This document shows, one piece after another, positions 2,371-14,423 of a DNA stretch of 33,429 bases. A program made the translations under genes and the position numbers. The stretch is taken from positions 1 to 33,429 of IMG/VR virus record IMGVR_UViG_3300020205_003285. The stretch is one strand, 5' to 3'. The first letter of the stretch is position 1, and every line of letters starts with the position of its first letter. This DNA comes from a virus. The notes under the pieces were generated by a model, which was not told where the DNA came from, searched no databases, and worked only from the letters and a program-made list of their open reading frames with translations.

Positions 2371-3047
2371 CATTTATTCATCATAATTATTTGGGTGATA
2401 TTGAACTAGAATGTAAAACAACAGAAAGTATTCGTCTCTATAATCTTCCGAATGGTAACTGGGTGCCTTCTATCACTTCAGTTACCTCATTTTATAATCG
2501 TCAAATCTTTGCTAAGTGGAGACAAAGAGTAGGTATTGAAGAGGCGAATCGCATTACTAAAAAAGCAACTGCAAGAGGAACTGATTTTCACCAAGTCTGT
2601 CAAGACTACCTTGAAAACAAGGAATTAAATTGGGATGATTATCAACTCCTGACAAAACACATGTTCTTTCATGCAAAACCTTATCTTGATAAGATAAATA
2701 ATATCCATGCAATCGAAAGAACACTTTACTCAGAATACTTAGGTCTAGCTGGTAGAGTCGATTGTATTGCAGAGTATGATGGTGAACTTGCGGTCATCGA
2801 CTTTAAGACATCTGAAAAAATTAAACCTGAAGAGTGGATTGAAAATTACTTTGTTCAAGAGACATTCTATGCATCCGCATACTATGAACTTACAGGTAAG
2901 GTAGTTAAAAAACTTATCACATTGATGGTTACTCCTGGAGGAGAAGTGAAAGTATTTGACAAAAGAAACAAAGGCGACTATATTAAGTTATTAGTTCGTT
3001 ATATTAAAGAATTTGTACATCACAATACTGGGTCAAATGGAGAATGA
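2367..3047 (+). CDS. PD-(D/E)XK exonuclease (RecB/Cas4/MGME1-like)
   Basis: A 226-aa nuclease with motif I RGTDFH (70-75), GRVDCI (129-134) and IDFKTS (144-149), then a Q164/Y168 block (VQETFYASAYY). This order is that of RecB-family single-strand exonucleases such as MGME1 and Cas4, but there are no Fe-S cysteine clusters, so it is not a Cas4. It probably processes DNA ends or host DNA during replication and recombination. Its start overlaps phoH, and it is in the early replication operon where T4 carries rnh. Confidence 0.85.
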   Translation: MTFIHHNYLGDIELECKTTESIRLYNLPNGNWVPSITSVTSFYNRQIFAKWRQRVGIEEANRITKKATARGTDFHQVCQDYLENKELNWDDYQLLTKHMFFHAKPYLDKINNIHAIERTLYSEYLGLAGRVDCIAEYDGELAVIDFKTSEKIKPEEWIENYFVQETFYASAYYELTGKVVKKLITLMVTPGGEVKVFDKRNKGDYIKLLVRYIKEFVHHNTGSNGE

Positions 3048-3294
3048 GTTAGAAAAGGTATTAGAAAGTAAATTCTTCTGCCCTTCTCGGTTTGCACAGG
3101 AGATTGAATCTTTAGTGCAAACAAATGAAGACATGAACTACATTGATGCAATTATTTACTTCTGTGAGATGAATAATATTGATGTAGAGTCAGTTCCTAA
3201 ACTTATTTCTAAACCTCTAAAGGAAAAGATTAAGTATGAAGCAATGGAACTTAATTTCTTAAAGAAAACCTCCCGCGCTAAATTAATTTTTTGA
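3037..3294 (+). CDS. 33: Late transcription co-activator gp33
   Basis: This 85-aa protein (start MENELEKVLESKFF) matches cyanophage gp33: SRFAQEIESLVQ, YIDAIIYFCEMNNID, SVPKLISKPLKEKIKYEA and a basic C-terminal KKTSRAKLIF. In T4, gp33 links RNA polymerase, the late sigma gp55 and the sliding clamp gp45 at late promoters. ATG 3037 is preferred over 3013 because it gives the normal N-terminus and a short overlap with the exonuclease stop. It is followed directly by gp59, as in T4. Its presence fits the NATAAATA boxes seen across this window. Confidence 0.85.
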   Translation: MENELEKVLESKFFCPSRFAQEIESLVQTNEDMNYIDAIIYFCEMNNIDVESVPKLISKPLKEKIKYEAMELNFLKKTSRAKLIF

Positions 3295-8532: not shown

Positions 8533-9414
8533 ATGGCGGGAGTTCGTCCAGAAAACTTAAGAGTAAGTGATATTAAGTCCAGACTATTAAATATTGCACA
8601 AACTTCTCTCTATAGAGTAACTATACCAGTCCCTTCTGGAGTATCTTCTTTTATATCTAGAAGAGGAATAACTTCTATTGACATCGATAATATATCATTA
8701 CTTTGTAGCGAAGCTTCCTTACCAGGATCTTCTTTAGCAACTCATGATGTTACAAATGATTATCATGGTGTAACTGAAAAGATGGCATATAGAAGAATGT
8801 ATGATGAAACTTTAGACTTGACTTTTTATGTTGATAGAAATTATAAAGTAGTTGATTTTTTTGAAAGTTGGATTGACTTTATCAGTGGAGTTGGAAGCGT
8901 ATTCTCAAGAGCTGATTTCAAGAGTCCTTATGTTCATCATAGGATGGCATATCCAAATGACTATAAGATCAATATGTATCTTACTAAGTTTGAAAAAGAT
9001 CAGCACTCTCAGCAATCTAGAATACCTGCTGTGACTCTTGATTATACTTTTGTTTATGCATTTCCAACTAATATCATTGCAGTTCCAGTTTCGTATGATC
9101 AGAGTCAACTCTTAAAATGTAGTGTTTCTTTCTCATACATTAGATATGTTGTTGAAAGAAGTTCAGCAGCATCTGCATCCTCGTTAGTAAATTTTAATGC
9201 TCCTGGAGTTCCAGAAGTAAAATCTCCTCAAGGAACTACAGTGTTTAATGGACCTACTCCTACTCCTACATTTAATACACAAAGATTATCAACAACATTG
9301 ACTAATGAGTACTATAATAATGGAATTATTCGTGGACCTCTTCCTAGTCAACAAATTCAAGGACCTGGCGATATAAGACAAGATGCAACTAATTTTACTC
9401 GCGGCATAGCATAA
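8533..9414 (+). CDS. 54: Baseplate tail-tube initiator gp54
   Basis: This 293-aa protein (T4 gp54 is 320 aa) has IKSRLLNIAQTSLYRVTIPVP, the tube-like LCSEASLPGSSLATHDVTNDYHGVTEKMAYRRMYDETLDLTFYVDRNYKVVDFFESWIDFISG and YPNDYKINMYLTKFEKD blocks of the tail-tube/tube-initiator fold. It sits on the gp48 cap and nucleates gp19 tube growth. No clear Shine-Dalgarno is visible. First gene of a plus-strand structural operon running to 20287. A gp19-like tube protein is an alternative, but length and the neighbour gp48 favour gp54. Confidence 0.88.
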   Translation: MAGVRPENLRVSDIKSRLLNIAQTSLYRVTIPVPSGVSSFISRRGITSIDIDNISLLCSEASLPGSSLATHDVTNDYHGVTEKMAYRRMYDETLDLTFYVDRNYKVVDFFESWIDFISGVGSVFSRADFKSPYVHHRMAYPNDYKINMYLTKFEKDQHSQQSRIPAVTLDYTFVYAFPTNIIAVPVSYDQSQLLKCSVSFSYIRYVVERSSAASASSLVNFNAPGVPEVKSPQGTTVFNGPTPTPTFNTQRLSTTLTNEYYNNGIIRGPLPSQQIQGPGDIRQDATNFTRGIA

Positions 9415-9450: not shown

Positions 9451-10170
9451 ATGCCTTTACCTACAATTGCGACTCCTACTTATGAACTTGAGTTGCCGTC
9501 TACGAAACAAAAAATTAAATATAGACCATTCTTAGTAAAAGAAGAAAAACTTTTAGTGTTAGCACTTGAGAGTGAAGATACAAAAGAAATTACGAATGCA
9601 ATTAAAGCAGTTTTAAAAAATTGTATTCAAGCAAAAAATATTAAGGTTGATACACTTCCAACTTTTGATATTGAGTATCTATTTTTAAATATTCGTGCTA
9701 AGTCTGTTGGTGAAGAAATAGAAGTAAATCTTATTGCTCCTGATGATGGAGAAACTTCTGTCCCTGTTATTATTAATGTTGATGAAATAAAAGTCCAAAA
9801 GAATCCTGATCATACTAATAAAATTAAGTTGGATGATTCATTGATGATGGAAATGAAATATCCATCACTTGAGCAATTTATAAAAAATAATTTTAATTTT
9901 TCTGATGATAACACTTTAGATCAATCATTTAATCTTATAGCTTCATGCATTGATAAAATTTATAATGAAGAAGAAGTTTGGGTTGCATCTGATGTTACGC
10001 AGAAAGAACTAGTGGATTTTCTTGAGCAAATGAATAGTCTTCAATTCAAGCAGATTGAAAAGTTTTTTGAGACTATGCCCAAACTTTCTCATGAAATTAC
10101 ATTCACTAATCCAAAAACAAAAGTAGAAAGCACAGTCGTACTAGAAGGGTTATCAAGTTTTTTCGGTTAG
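9451..10170 (+). CDS. 26: Baseplate hub subunit gp26 / possible tail-assembly chaperone
   Basis: The 239-aa protein has the T4_baseplate (gp26) signature: MPLPTIATPTYELELPSTKQKIKYRPFLVKEEKLLVLALESEDTKEITNAIKAVLKNCI, then DIEYLFLNIRAKSVGEEIEV. In T4 gp26 is needed for hub assembly. Its last sense codons are AGT TTT TTC GGT TAG, containing the heptamer T TTT TTC (10158-10164). A -1 slip there would skip the stop and continue into the next small ORF, as in the lambda G/GT chaperones. It has no Shine-Dalgarno; a small hairpin abuts its ATG. Confidence 0.87.
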   Translation: MPLPTIATPTYELELPSTKQKIKYRPFLVKEEKLLVLALESEDTKEITNAIKAVLKNCIQAKNIKVDTLPTFDIEYLFLNIRAKSVGEEIEVNLIAPDDGETSVPVIINVDEIKVQKNPDHTNKIKLDDSLMMEMKYPSLEQFIKNNFNFSDDNTLDQSFNLIASCIDKIYNEEEVWVASDVTQKELVDFLEQMNSLQFKQIEKFFETMPKLSHEITFTNPKTKVESTVVLEGLSSFFG

Positions 10171-10188
10171 GTATGATCCATATGGATC
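10158..10188 (+). promoter_or_regulatory. Candidate programmed -1 ribosomal frameshift signal
   Basis: The heptamer T TTT TTC (10158-10164) is in the zero frame of gp26, two codons before its stop. Ten nt later GATCC (10175-10179) and GGATC (10184-10188) form a perfect 5-bp hairpin with an ATAT loop. After a -1 slip, reading continues CGG TTA GGT ATG with no stop, straight into the ORF at 10173. The predicted fusion is about 300 aa. Confidence 0.55.
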
Positions 10189-10349
10189 TAGAGAATTTTT
10201 ATAAAATAAACTTTGCTCTCATGCAGTTCCATAAATATTCATTAACAGAGATTGAAAATATGATGCCGTGGGAGCGTGACATTTATGTTGGATTACTCCA
10301 AAATCATCTGGAAGAAGAAAAACTAAGACAACAACAAAATGGTTCCTAA
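10173..10349 (+). CDS. 58-aa protein after gp26 (gp51-like / tail chaperone 'T' part)
   Basis: The ORF reads MIHMDLENFYKINFALMQFHKYSLTEIENMMPWERDIYVGLLQNHLEEEKLRQQQNGS. Alternative start M4 is at 10182. The pattern 'YSLTEIENMxPWERDIYVxLL' resembles the short downstream member of tail-assembly chaperone pairs, and the gene lies between gp26 and a tape-measure-like gene. It is in the -1 frame of gp26 and may be made both alone and as a fusion. In cyanophages genes here are sometimes named after T4 gp51. It overlaps the next gene by 11 nt. Confidence 0.75.
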   Translation: MIHMDLENFYKINFALMQFHKYSLTEIENMMPWERDIYVGLLQNHLEEEKLRQQQNGS

Positions 10350-12534
10350 TCCTACATCTTCTGCATTAGTTCCTGTAAAGGTTGACAATGACAACTTAGT
10401 AGAAGAAAAGATTGATGAGAGAATTCTTGCAATCTTAGGAATAGGAGATGTTTTTGATTTAACTTATGAAGAATATATTTCTTTACTTAAAGAGAAATCA
10501 ATAGAGTATCGAATGTCCGGTGCGGATGTTCCTACTGAAAGTGCCGAATTAATAACAGAAGAATTTAAAAGAGTAAAGAGAAAATCTGGAAAATTTAAAG
10601 TTAAATCGCAAAAAATTAATTTTGAAAAGGTTGTTAATGTCCGGACACCTTTACCACAAAAGGCACAATTAGATCCAAGTAAACTTTTACCTCTACCAAA
10701 AGAAGAAGAAAAAGTAGAGATTGAAAAAGAACCATCTATAAAAGATATTCTAAATTTTCTGAAAGGAGATCTTCTTAGTGGTTTATCTTCTATTCTAGAG
10801 TCTCTTACTCAAATCAATCAGACACTTAAGGAACAAAATCAGATTGATAGAAAGTCGAGAGAGTCTAAAAGAAGAACTGGAGAACTTGAAAAGAAGTCTA
10901 AAAGAGAGTCTGAATTAGAATCAAAACCTACTAAAAAGAAAGAGGAAGAAGAGAAATTAAAAACTCCTGTAATTAATTTTTTCGATTCCATTAAAAAGTT
11001 TGTCACCAATGTACTACTTGGTTCTGTAGTATTGGGTCTATTTAAGTGGTTGAAAGATCCTAAGAATGAAAAGGCAATCAATAGTTTTGGACAGTTTCTT
11101 ACTGATAATGCACCTTTGATACTTGGAGGATTGCTTGCTATTGCATCACTTCCTATAGCTGCAACTTTGTTTAAGTTAACTACCGCTGTTATTGGTGGAA
11201 TTGGTATGCTCGGAACTGCACTAGGTGGATTAACTACTTTACTTCCTGCTTTTGGTTTATTTGGTGCATTTGTTGGCGGTCAAATGATATTTAAAAACCT
11301 GCAAAAATTTGCTGGAGGTGAAGATGCTCCAGCTGTCGAAAGTGAACTTTATAAACTGAAAAAAGATTTGGTTCTCAGAAAAGGACAAGCACAATTGATG
11401 TCTGGAAAAGAAAAAGAACAATCTTTGAAAAAAATACAAGAAGATGAAAAAAAACTCAATAGGATAGAGCAAGAACTTTTGCCTAGAATGACCAAAACTC
11501 AAAGTATGAAAAGGCAATTAAATCAAACAAAACAAAAATTAAAAAAGGATGAAGAGGAACTTAAAAAATTAAAAGGGTATGAAGGCACTCCATTCTATAA
11601 GGCTAAATTAAAAGATATAGAAATATCTAAAAAGATAATATCAGAGAATGAAAAAAATATTCCAATATCGCAAAGAGAACAAGATAAGTTAATGAAAGAC
11701 ATTATGGGCCCTGAAGGAGCTCAAGGTGATGTTATTGATAAAATTGATAAGTTTATAAAAGATTCTCAAAAAATGGTTGAAAACTTAAATACTGAAGTTC
11801 AACCACAAAATTCTGCTGTTCCATCATCCTCAGATTATGTAAGTCCTTTTGCTGGTGCAAGGGATAGAGCGATACTTAATGCAAGTAAAATAACTGGAAA
11901 TGCTCCGATTACTATTGGTGAGAAAGCATCTGCGTATAGTGCATCTAGAGGAAGAGCGCATCGTGGAAGAGATATTGCTGCACCATCAGGAACGGGTTTA
12001 ACAGTTCCTTCTGAATCTGTGATTACCGACAAAGGTGTTGATGGTGGATATGGAAATTATGTTGTATTCAAAGATTCTAACGGCGTTGAACATTTTTATG
12101 GACATATGATAGAACAGTCTCCACTTAAAGTTGGAGATACTGTGTCTCCAGGAAATATTATTGGAAGAGTTGGATCTACTGGAAGAAGTACAGGACCTCA
12201 TCTTCACTGGGAAGTTTCTAGAGTAATGGGCGAAGTTGGAAGACCAAGAGCAAATATTATTGATCCCATCGAAATGGGTTTTCCTGCTCAAGCACCTTTT
12301 ACTGGAAAAGTTGAGGCAGCACAAATTGCACAAAAACCAATTGCAACACCATCAATACCTTCACCAACAGGAAGAAGCAATATAACTATGTTACCATTAA
12401 TTGCAGGTGCTGGTCCTCAACAAGTTTCTAGTGGAACCTCACCAAATCAGGCTCCTGTTCCAAACTTCTCTTCAGAGGATCCAAATAACATGACTATGTT
12501 AACAGTAAAAGCAATTTATAATATGGTCGGATAA
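10339..12534 (+). CDS. Hub/tape-measure-like protein with M23 peptidase domain
   Basis: A 731-aa protein. A charged coiled-coil region (about 150-210) is followed by a hydrophobic helix (221-237), a long hydrophobic region (258-318), another coiled coil (335-460) and a C-terminal M23/LytM endopeptidase. The zinc ligands are visible: H541/D545 in HRGRD, H589 in FYGHM, and H621/H623 in GPHLHWEV. The domain should cut peptide cross-links of peptidoglycan during DNA entry. The place after gp26 and the hydrophobic/coiled-coil build suggest a tape-measure or gp29-like hub role. It is paralogous in layout to the next protein. Confidence 0.85.
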   Translation: MVPNPTSSALVPVKVDNDNLVEEKIDERILAILGIGDVFDLTYEEYISLLKEKSIEYRMSGADVPTESAELITEEFKRVKRKSGKFKVKSQKINFEKVVNVRTPLPQKAQLDPSKLLPLPKEEEKVEIEKEPSIKDILNFLKGDLLSGLSSILESLTQINQTLKEQNQIDRKSRESKRRTGELEKKSKRESELESKPTKKKEEEEKLKTPVINFFDSIKKFVTNVLLGSVVLGLFKWLKDPKNEKAINSFGQFLTDNAPLILGGLLAIASLPIAATLFKLTTAVIGGIGMLGTALGGLTTLLPAFGLFGAFVGGQMIFKNLQKFAGGEDAPAVESELYKLKKDLVLRKGQAQLMSGKEKEQSLKKIQEDEKKLNRIEQELLPRMTKTQSMKRQLNQTKQKLKKDEEELKKLKGYEGTPFYKAKLKDIEISKKIISENEKNIPISQREQDKLMKDIMGPEGAQGDVIDKIDKFIKDSQKMVENLNTEVQPQNSAVPSSSDYVSPFAGARDRAILNASKITGNAPITIGEKASAYSASRGRAHRGRDIAAPSGTGLTVPSESVITDKGVDGGYGNYVVFKDSNGVEHFYGHMIEQSPLKVGDTVSPGNIIGRVGSTGRSTGPHLHWEVSRVMGEVGRPRANIIDPIEMGFPAQAPFTGKVEAAQIAQKPIATPSIPSPTGRSNITMLPLIAGAGPQQVSSGTSPNQAPVPNFSSEDPNNMTMLTVKAIYNMVG

Positions 12535-12536
12535 AA

Positions 12537-14423
12537 ATGTTACCACTACTCGCGTCAATTGGAAGGTTAGCAATTTCATCAAAGGTCGGAAAAAAAGTCG
12601 CGGATGAAGGTGCAAAGAAAAGTGGTAAAAAGATTGCTGAAAAAGTTTTTAATAGAAATAAAGAAAGTCCAATTGAATCTGCAGGTGGTGGAAAAGGATC
12701 TGCTCTTGTAAAAGTTCCGAAAATATCTACAAAAATAATTTCTGCAGATTCACTTCTTGGTACTGAGAAAGAAGATGAATCGGAAAAAAAGGATGCTGCA
12801 AAAATAACAGAATCTTTTTTTGATGATATTTTAAATACACTTCAATCTATAAAAATAACTCTTAATAGAATTCAAGAAACACTTAATGAAAGAAAAAAAA
12901 TATCTTTAGAAGATGAAACTACTGAAAGAAAAGAAACATCAAAAAGAAGATCTGGAAAAAGAGAAGCAAAACTTGAAACAAAATCAAAAAAAGGATCTTT
13001 AGGTAAACTCAAGTTTGAAACTTCAGGTATTCCTTTTATTGATCGCATCATGAATTTTTTTGGTATGGTTTTAATTGGTTCTTTGGTTTTGTTTTTATAT
13101 AAAAAAATTAATGAAATCATCAAGTTCTTTGAGGAAACATTCTTAAAGATACAGGAATTTTTTAAGGCAATTGAACCTTTTGTGAAACCTATTTGGGATG
13201 GCATGAAATGGATTGTTGGTGGAGGTGCAAATATTATTGCAAAAATATTGGGTATTCCATCGCAAGAAGCAGATACTAATAGTATAAGTAAAAATTTGGA
13301 AGAGATTACTAAAAAAATTCCTGTAATTGGTGATCTGTTCAAAGGAATTCAAGATACTATTGATAGTATCAGAGGATATAAAGAACCATCAAGTGATGGT
13401 GGTTCTACCTCTAGTGGAGGTGGATATGTTGCTCCTGCTGTAGGATCGAAGCAAGGAGCGTATGATGTTGCTTCTAGAATAGGTGCAAATAAACAGCAGT
13501 GGGATACTTATAGAAATACTATAGCTCAAATAGAATCTGGTGGACGATATGAAGCAGTAGGTGGAAGTGGAGATTATTATGATGGAAGATATCAAATGGG
13601 AGGAGAGGCAAAAACCGATGCAGCTAGAATTCTAGGAATACCTAATCCAGGTCATTCATCTAATCCGAATGATCCAAGGAGAGTTGCATTTAGGAGAAAT
13701 CCAGAACTTCAAGAAAAAATGTTTGCTGCATACACACTAGCAAACCATGGATATCTTTCTTCCGATCCAAACTATCAAGCAAAACAAACTGTAGAGCAAA
13801 AGTTACAGGTTTTGGGTTATGCACATAATCAAGGTGCTGGTGGGGCATCAAAATGGATGAGAACTGGAAAGGTTGGTAAAGATGGATTTGGAACCTCGGG
13901 AACAAAATATAGTAATGCTTTACGAGAGGCATTTAAAAGATCTCCTTCATATAAACAAACGATCGCAGATACAACCGCACAGGCAGCCGCCGCGCAAAAT
14001 CAAATTACACCAACCTCAGTATCACCAACAGCATCAACACCAGCATCAATAGCACCAACCTCAGCATCACCAGCAGCACTAACCTCAGCATCACCAGCAT
14101 CATTGACCGCACCAAATCAAACATCTTCTTCTATGCTTGTCCAGTCAAGCACAACACTACAACAAACTCAAATTACACAAGCACAAATATCATCGATGCA
14201 AGAACCTCCATCAGTGTCTGCAAGTGTACCTCAAATAATGCAGCAAGCAGAATATGAAATTCAAGGAACTCAAAATAATATTTTTATGATTGGTTCGAGT
14301 AAATCGCCAAATGTTTCTATGTCATCTGGATCTAGATCAGTGCTTCTATCAATGTCCAAAAAAGAAGCATTAAATAGTTATTATCAATCTCAACTTATTG
14401 GATTCCTTTATAAGCAAGGTTAA
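12537..14423 (+). CDS. Hub-type protein with lytic transglycosylase-like domain
   Basis: This 628-aa protein has the same layout as its neighbour: basic/acidic coiled coil (85-160), transmembrane-like helix FFGMVLIGSLVLFLY (174-188), amphipathic helices (190-280), then a Gly/Ser linker. A lysozyme/SLT-like domain follows (about 305-470), with candidate catalytic E333 in AQIESGG, GRYQM (350-354) and LGYAHNQGAGGA (426-437). A Pro/Ala/Ser/Thr repeat linker (490-530) leads to a conserved C-terminus. It probably cleaves glycan strands while the previous protein cuts peptides. The start follows the upstream stop by 2 nt, and the stop overlaps the next start (TAATG). Confidence 0.8.
   Translation: MLPLLASIGRLAISSKVGKKVADEGAKKSGKKIAEKVFNRNKESPIESAGGGKGSALVKVPKISTKIISADSLLGTEKEDESEKKDAAKITESFFDDILNTLQSIKITLNRIQETLNERKKISLEDETTERKETSKRRSGKREAKLETKSKKGSLGKLKFETSGIPFIDRIMNFFGMVLIGSLVLFLYKKINEIIKFFEETFLKIQEFFKAIEPFVKPIWDGMKWIVGGGANIIAKILGIPSQEADTNSISKNLEEITKKIPVIGDLFKGIQDTIDSIRGYKEPSSDGGSTSSGGGYVAPAVGSKQGAYDVASRIGANKQQWDTYRNTIAQIESGGRYEAVGGSGDYYDGRYQMGGEAKTDAARILGIPNPGHSSNPNDPRRVAFRRNPELQEKMFAAYTLANHGYLSSDPNYQAKQTVEQKLQVLGYAHNQGAGGASKWMRTGKVGKDGFGTSGTKYSNALREAFKRSPSYKQTIADTTAQAAAAQNQITPTSVSPTASTPASIAPTSASPAALTSASPASLTAPNQTSSSMLVQSSTTLQQTQITQAQISSMQEPPSVSASVPQIMQQAEYEIQGTQNNIFMIGSSKSPNVSMSSGSRSVLLSMSKKEALNSYYQSQLIGFLYKQG

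Follow-up and report, generated by a model that had tools for sequence, protein, structure and literature searches.

A predicted -1 frameshift site at the end of gp26 in a cyanophage-like virus and its relatives

The stretch of DNA analysed here, referred to as the window, comprises positions 1 to 33,429 of the IMG/VR virus record IMGVR_UViG_3300020205_003285. By sequence comparison, this 33.4-kb record carries T4-like tail genes and is cyanophage-like. The genes and features around gp26 are:

8533 to 9414, plus strand: tail tube protein gene, directly upstream of gp26 (context; PF23849, phrog_45)
9451 to 10170, plus strand: gp26, proposed short tail assembly chaperone (TAC-N) of 239 aa (PF12322, phrog_150, chaperone fold matches of the structure model)
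10144 to 10149, plus strand: Shine-Dalgarno-like GAAGGG, candidate stimulator (anti-Shine-Dalgarno pairing minimum; GAG and GGG enrichment)
10158 to 10164, plus strand: slippery heptamer T_TTT_TTC (canonical site in 247 of 250 loci; internal Phe-Phe control)
10164 to 10349, plus strand: -1 frame extension, 61 residues and stop (open frame; homology to the C-terminus of T4 gp51)
10168 to 10170, plus strand: zero-frame stop TAG of gp26 (read from the sequence)
10173 to 10349, plus strand: small ORF of 58 aa (phrog_634, E 1.4e-27; phrog_150 columns 240-281; annotation of relatives)
10175 to 10188, plus strand: candidate 5-bp hairpin GATCC-ATAT-GGATC, weakly supported (pairs in relatives)
10339 to 12534, plus strand: 731-aa coiled-coil and M23 peptidase protein, tape-measure-like, role putative (context; PF01551, phrog_35029)

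The gp26 of the window matches PF12322 (T4_baseplate; T4 gp26 and gp51) with an E-value of 1.1e-74 and 251.2 bits, against a curated cut-off of 24.5. Its zero-frame 3' end is TCA AGT TTT TTC GGT TAG. From position 10164, the -1 frame reads CGG TTA GGT ATG ATC CAT ATG and continues without a stop into the ORF at 10173. The first-pass annotation had proposed a frameshift at this junction, and its sequence, frame and coordinates for the slip site and the 58-aa ORF all proved exact when re-read in the window. The predicted long form (TAC-NC) consists of gp26 residues 1-238 followed by the extension, 299 aa in total. In many cyanophage records, ORFs of the 58-aa type are labelled 'gp51' or 'baseplate hub assembly catalyst'.

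The tail tube gene adjoins gp26, as is the case for G/GT-type chaperone genes. The gene downstream of the 58-aa ORF is plausibly that of the tape measure, and tape measure families match its 731-aa product mostly via the M23 domain. In phiM12, a note of similarity to tape measure proteins attaches to the gene two places downstream of the extension. The region 10339-14423 of the window holds this M23-peptidase gene and an adjoining gene of a phage endolysin family, whose N-terminal parts both match phrog_35029 (E 3.5e-25 and 7e-4), as if the pair were derived from a duplication.

The heptamer is common in this A+T-rich window, so a single sequence is weak evidence for recoding. TTTTTTC occurs 33 times on the two strands against 23.6 expected, a count reached in 2 of 100 shuffles, and canonical in-frame heptamers of any kind number 52 in the 10,016 codons of 31 selected ORFs. 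We therefore turned to relatives. The set comprised 254 loci: 80, 80 and 78 from three viral-contig scans, 14 named one-gene phages, a second copy of VAP7 and the window itself. None of the peptide patterns used to recruit contigs spans the slip site. Four loci (L219, L240, L241 and L256), in which the contig ends before the gp26 stop, were dropped, leaving 250. Merging loci of at least 90% identity over 500 nt gave a non-redundant set of 154, free of the twice-fetched contigs and of L001 (whose gp26 is identical to that of the window), which the set of 250 includes. Two-gene phages (L081, L093, L094, L098 and L257-L266) were deliberately kept out of the heptamer survey and viewed on their own.

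A canonical T_TTT_TTN lies within the -1-open stretch at 247 of 250 loci and 152 of 154 non-redundant ones; it takes the form TTTTTTC in 230, TTTTTTT in 16 and TTTTTTG in one. The three loci that miss it are Vibrio phage K361 and the two copies of VAP7. In 151 of 151 non-redundant genes the heptamer is encoded by a terminal Phe-Phe, and the preceding T is always present although it is supplied by eight different codons. The 152nd gene, that of RL2RES, has Phe-Leu instead and reads T_TTT_TTG. An internal conserved Phe-Phe, at residues 205-206 of the window protein, provides a natural control: here the heptamer is found in only 2 of 136 genes, the commonest codons being TTC TTT (95 of 136). Silent variation, assessed at 129 columns, is lowest at codon 237 and third lowest at codon 238.

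The -1 frame is similarly well kept. At 244 of 245 complete loci (148 of 149 non-redundant), it runs on without a stop for 45 codons or longer beyond the end of gp26, compared with 1 of 149 for the +1 frame and 0 of 149 for the zero frame in the complete non-redundant loci. The sole failure is L022, in which the extension is lost 13 codons past the stop. In this contig only, a 20-nt tandem duplication (2347-2395) breaks the extension, and it may be either an assembly error or the mark of a broken phage. At 6 of 152 loci, the heptamer itself is where the open stretch of the -1 frame begins, which makes entry from farther upstream impossible there. Conservation of the heptamer and of the -1 relation was the point on which the first-pass annotation had let its proposal stand or fall, and both hold across the relatives. 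Within the first 15 codons after the slip, 118 of 152 loci have an ATG, 12 have only GTG or TTG and 22 have none of the three.

Among 18 whole phage records, PF12322 occurs once in 14 and twice in four, namely T4, Klebsiella phage Mineola, Shewanella phage Thanatos-1 and Aeromonas phage 25. The window, a fragment, holds a single copy, and the T4-like two-gene arrangement was not encountered in it. In these four, gp26 is the short protein, and gp51 consists of the PF12322 domain followed by a C-terminal extension that shares homology with the small ORF of cyanophages. T4 gp51 residues 3-248 match columns 13-280 of phrog_150, in which T4 gp26 ends at column 235. Homology of the window extension to the C-terminus of T4 gp51 is seen in phrog_634, in phrog_150 columns 240-281 and in a protein alignment (A4). 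The alignment omits L265, a T4-type contig whose gp51 gene (2501-3258) closely resembles that of Mineola and falls into two ORFs, through either a sequencing error or a real defect.

No heptamer was found at the end of gp26 in the four two-copy isolates and the eight related contigs viewed (L259 and L265 lay outside this view). The terminal Phe-Phe is kept as TTC TTT in T4, Mineola and five contigs and is lost in the remaining two-copy phages viewed. The -1 extension is present in every one of the 14 one-copy phages, and 12 of them have the canonical heptamer. In this set, the slip site and the second gene thus stand in for each other.

Among named phages, the canonical site is present in P-SSM2, S-PM2, ACG-2014d, S-SSM4, P-HM2 and Melnitz-3, as well as in phiM12, RL2RES, Desulfovibrio phage 7757, Stenotrophomonas phage Moby, Aeromonas phage AS-zj and Vibrio phage D486. 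Outside the 250 loci, it was also found in Aeromonas phage 65, phiM9 and P10VF. The extension is unannotated in the records of ACG-2014d and S-SSM4. In P-HM2 (L097, 3197-3381), 'gp51' is annotated as a short ORF from an internal ATG, although no stop interrupts the -1 frame between the heptamer and that ATG.

The exceptions retain the extension. VAP7 (L095, 1749-2677, approximate ends), grouped with the Ackermannviridae-type phages, has a -1 extension after its PF12322 gene and a degenerate site, C_GTT_TTT. Vibrio phage K361 (L092, 2351-3267) has a 59-aa -1 extension without a canonical heptamer; the junction reads CTT TTC AAG TAA|TG, and this stop-start overlap may replace the slip site. Four Ackermannviridae-type phages, likewise outside the 250, have a -1 extension of 50-56 aa: Guerrero, phiDP10.3, 2050H1 and XDRKpn-1, the last assigned to this type by similarity only. 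Their sites are of the X_XTT_TTY form only (A_ATT_TTC in two, G_GTT_TTC and G_ATT_TTC in one each), and three of these phages have a -1 frame that is open from only 3 or 4 codons before the stop. G_GTT_TTC is a slip site of the T7 gene 10 type. The four loci lie at approximately 1495-2460 (L269), 1495-2450 (L270), 1495-2425 (L271) and 1495-2460 (L272), and in three of them the extension is unannotated. Scanning with the Vibrio phage D486 protein found no relative and scanning with that of VAP7 recovered only its own sequence, so these two clades are represented by isolates only. A profile of six distant gp26 proteins offered no stretch conserved enough for scanning.

The structure model of gp26 (mean pLDDT 86.3) gave, as its top rows in VIA-align, 3fgx (Z 7.9), 2ob9 (7.7), 3klu (7.2) and 5ir0 (4.9), followed by a next score of 3.5. 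The best-matching part is the N-terminal domain, and these four best matches are solved tail assembly chaperones, which supports the analogy to lambda G/GT drawn in the first-pass annotation. The entry 2ob9 is the HK97 tail assembly chaperone. A passage in the text of PMC9603447 refers to 2OB9, 3KLU and 3FGX as tail assembly chaperones, while its table gives 3KLU and 3FGX as uncharacterized; 5IR0 is described as a tail assembly chaperone in a passage of PMC12987554. Since the Z scores stay below 8 and neither the gp26 nor the long-form model had a hit reaching E 0.001 with Foldseek alone, we accept a tail-chaperone-like fold of the short form with caution. To represent the long form, we modelled a gp51 that occurs naturally in a two-gene arrangement (L262; mean pLDDT 94.0), whose C-terminal part is predicted to form helices at residues 198-205, 210-223, 228-232 and 236-251. 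VIA-align returned no chaperone row for this model and no useful match for its C-terminal part. Searching solved structures by sequence found no match to gp26 and returned three rows at chance level for the long form; in NCBIfam, neither gp26 nor the extension came near a cut-off.

In frameshifting of the dnaX type, a -1 heptamer is stimulated by a Shine-Dalgarno-like element about 8-10 nt upstream. In the window, GAAGGG precedes the heptamer by 8 nt. Across 149 loci, the mean pairing energy with the anti-Shine-Dalgarno sequence has a sharp minimum of -6.6 kcal/mol at the 7-mer that starts 15 nt before the heptamer. A Glu-Gly is conserved as protein at this position, and its codons are skewed: Glu is encoded by GAG in 83 of 132 cases against 1170 of 3721 gene-wide (p 4e-13), and Gly by GGG in 47 of 146 against 58 of 963 (p 2e-17), kinship being ignored in both tests.

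The 5-bp hairpin reported in the first-pass annotation is present 10 nt after the heptamer, as described, and proved weakly supported as a stimulator. In the window its z score is -0.55, and an equally good fold arose in 59 of 200 shuffles. All five pairs can form at 56 of 138 loci, compared with 0-2 when the positions are slid; two of its positions associate in the direction of pairing (Fisher p 0.001 and 0.0004, ignoring kinship), and the 60 nt after the heptamer have a mean z of -1.07 against simple shuffles across 149 loci. The arms overlap conserved codons, and none of three groups of relatives gave a consensus fold. We have therefore rejected the hairpin as the main stimulator and keep it as a weak candidate.

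On this sequence evidence, we propose, with a probability of roughly 0.9, that gp26 of the window is a G/GT-type programmed -1 frameshift gene that makes both TAC-N and TAC-NC for the tail assembly chaperone. Most ribosomes would reach the TAG and release the short form of 239 aa. Of the others, a fraction whose tRNAs sit on the TTT and TTC of T_TTT_TTC would slip back by one base, probably aided by the Shine-Dalgarno-like GAAGGG behind the ribosome. These ribosomes would bypass the stop and add 61 residues, giving the 299-aa long form. By analogy with lambda gpG and gpGT, many short copies would sit on the tape measure protein, and the C-terminal helices of the long form would recruit tail tube or hub subunits. 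T4 makes the counterpart pair with gene 26 encoding the short form and gene 51 the long one. The sequences and models directly show the site, a conservation of it that exceeds what the protein requires, the open -1 frame, the homology of the extension to the end of gp51 and a fold similar to that of chaperones. The recoding itself, how often it occurs, the stimulation by GAAGGG and the separate tasks of the two forms are what we infer here. We know of no case of U_UUU_UUC slippage on cyanobacterial ribosomes. For the roles assigned to the two forms we follow the account of lambda in PMC5009743, where many short copies sit on the tape measure and the long form recruits subunits.

The best-surviving alternative is translational coupling, in which ribosomes stop at the TAG (10168-10170) and restart at the ATG at 10173 (or at 10182), producing a separate 58-aa protein and no fusion. 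TAG and ATG are 2 nt apart in the window, the ORF is listed as a gene in many records, and the ATG found within 15 codons of the slip at 118 of 152 loci means that a separate small protein could also arise. However, coupling requires neither the heptamer nor the -1 frame, and both are kept; 22 of 152 loci lack any start codon in the first 15 codons, and the two parts form one fused protein in T4 and three relatives. Together, the kept heptamer, the kept frame and the missing start codons argue for frameshifting and against restart as the sole route, which we regard as improbable. Coupled restart may coexist with frameshifting.

Still less probable is transcript slippage, in which RNA polymerase would slip on the T run so that some mRNAs lose or gain bases and the two frames are joined. 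The run of six T, extended to seven at 16 of 250 loci, would be its substrate, but polymerase slippage usually calls for a run longer than six to seven bases. Moreover, the in-frame phase of the run is fixed, a C follows the six T at 230 of 250 loci, and slippage of this kind gives the upstream Shine-Dalgarno-like element no role. That there is no recoding, and that the heptamer arose by chance from a conserved Phe-Phe and A+T-rich codons in a window where TTTTTTC is common, can be set aside given its conservation in relatives, its near absence at the internal Phe-Phe (2 of 136 against 151 of 151 at the terminal one) and two-gene phages such as T4 and Mineola, in which the terminal Phe-Phe persists, encoded by TTC TTT, and forms no heptamer.

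Returning to programmed frameshifting as the preferred reading, a broader scenario can be drawn for the PF12322 tail chaperones, to which, taken jointly, we give about even odds. One gene with a slip site would be the older state, found from cyanophages to Pootjesviridae and Emmerichvirinae, and in Ackermannviridae with a degenerate X_XTT_TTY. In the T4 line, this state would have been lost in favour of separate, divergent short and long genes, the heptamer decaying and the Phe-Phe often being kept. The main conserved stimulator would be the Shine-Dalgarno-like element and not the hairpin. In this scenario, the 'gp51' genes in cyanophage records would be C-terminal fragments of a fusion protein. 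The present data suggest that the 'gp51' ORF of cyanophage records is not a stand-alone gene. The natural comparison of one gene with a slip site and two genes without makes the frameshift ratio, the subunit ratio and tail length testable.

The proposed gp26 frameshift is probably not new in kind. Xu, Hendrix and Duda reportedly described the frameshifts of lambda G/GT and other tail assembly chaperones in 2004. Like lambda G/GT, the window has a short chaperone gene with a predicted -1 slip near its 3' end, a small C-terminal extension and an adjoining tail tube gene. It differs in its slip sequence, that of lambda being GGGAAAG, and in its proteins, the window extension being homologous to T4 gp51. 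To our knowledge, no upstream Shine-Dalgarno-like element has been described for lambda G/GT. The -1 heptamer with a nearby Shine-Dalgarno-like element at similar spacing recalls the dnaX type, in a different gene and with the window element as a candidate stimulator.

A passage of PMC5009743 (2016) calls the G-T frameshift widely conserved among long-tailed phages 'except T4'. According to part of PMC10885494, citing Vladimirov, Gautam and Davidson 2022, T4-like phages have one short and one long gene and no frameshift; part of PMC12846349, citing the same work (Virology), attributes poly-T -1 signals to TAC-N genes of T4-like phages. We found no description of a cyanophage gp26 frameshift in the literature looked through, a search that most subscription journals lay outside, and it is quite possible that the cyanophage case has been published before. 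What is added here is the breadth across relatives, the natural controls and the upstream Shine-Dalgarno-like element.

T4 gp26 and gp51, reported as tail assembly chaperones by Vladimirov, Gautam and Davidson, belong to the same protein family and comprise the same short and long products, the long one being predicted in the window. T4 has two divergent genes and no heptamer, whereas the window has one gene with a slip site. A parallel in arrangement is offered by the Vandenendeviridae and Andersonviridae, exemplified by Pseudomonas phage Adele, in which, as related in part of PMC12846349, a -1 extension follows the chaperone gene at a poly-T motif and is usually annotated as a separate gene or omitted. 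Their invariant motif is given there as GTTTTT, whereas the site in the present set is T_TTT_TTN, mostly TTTTTTC.
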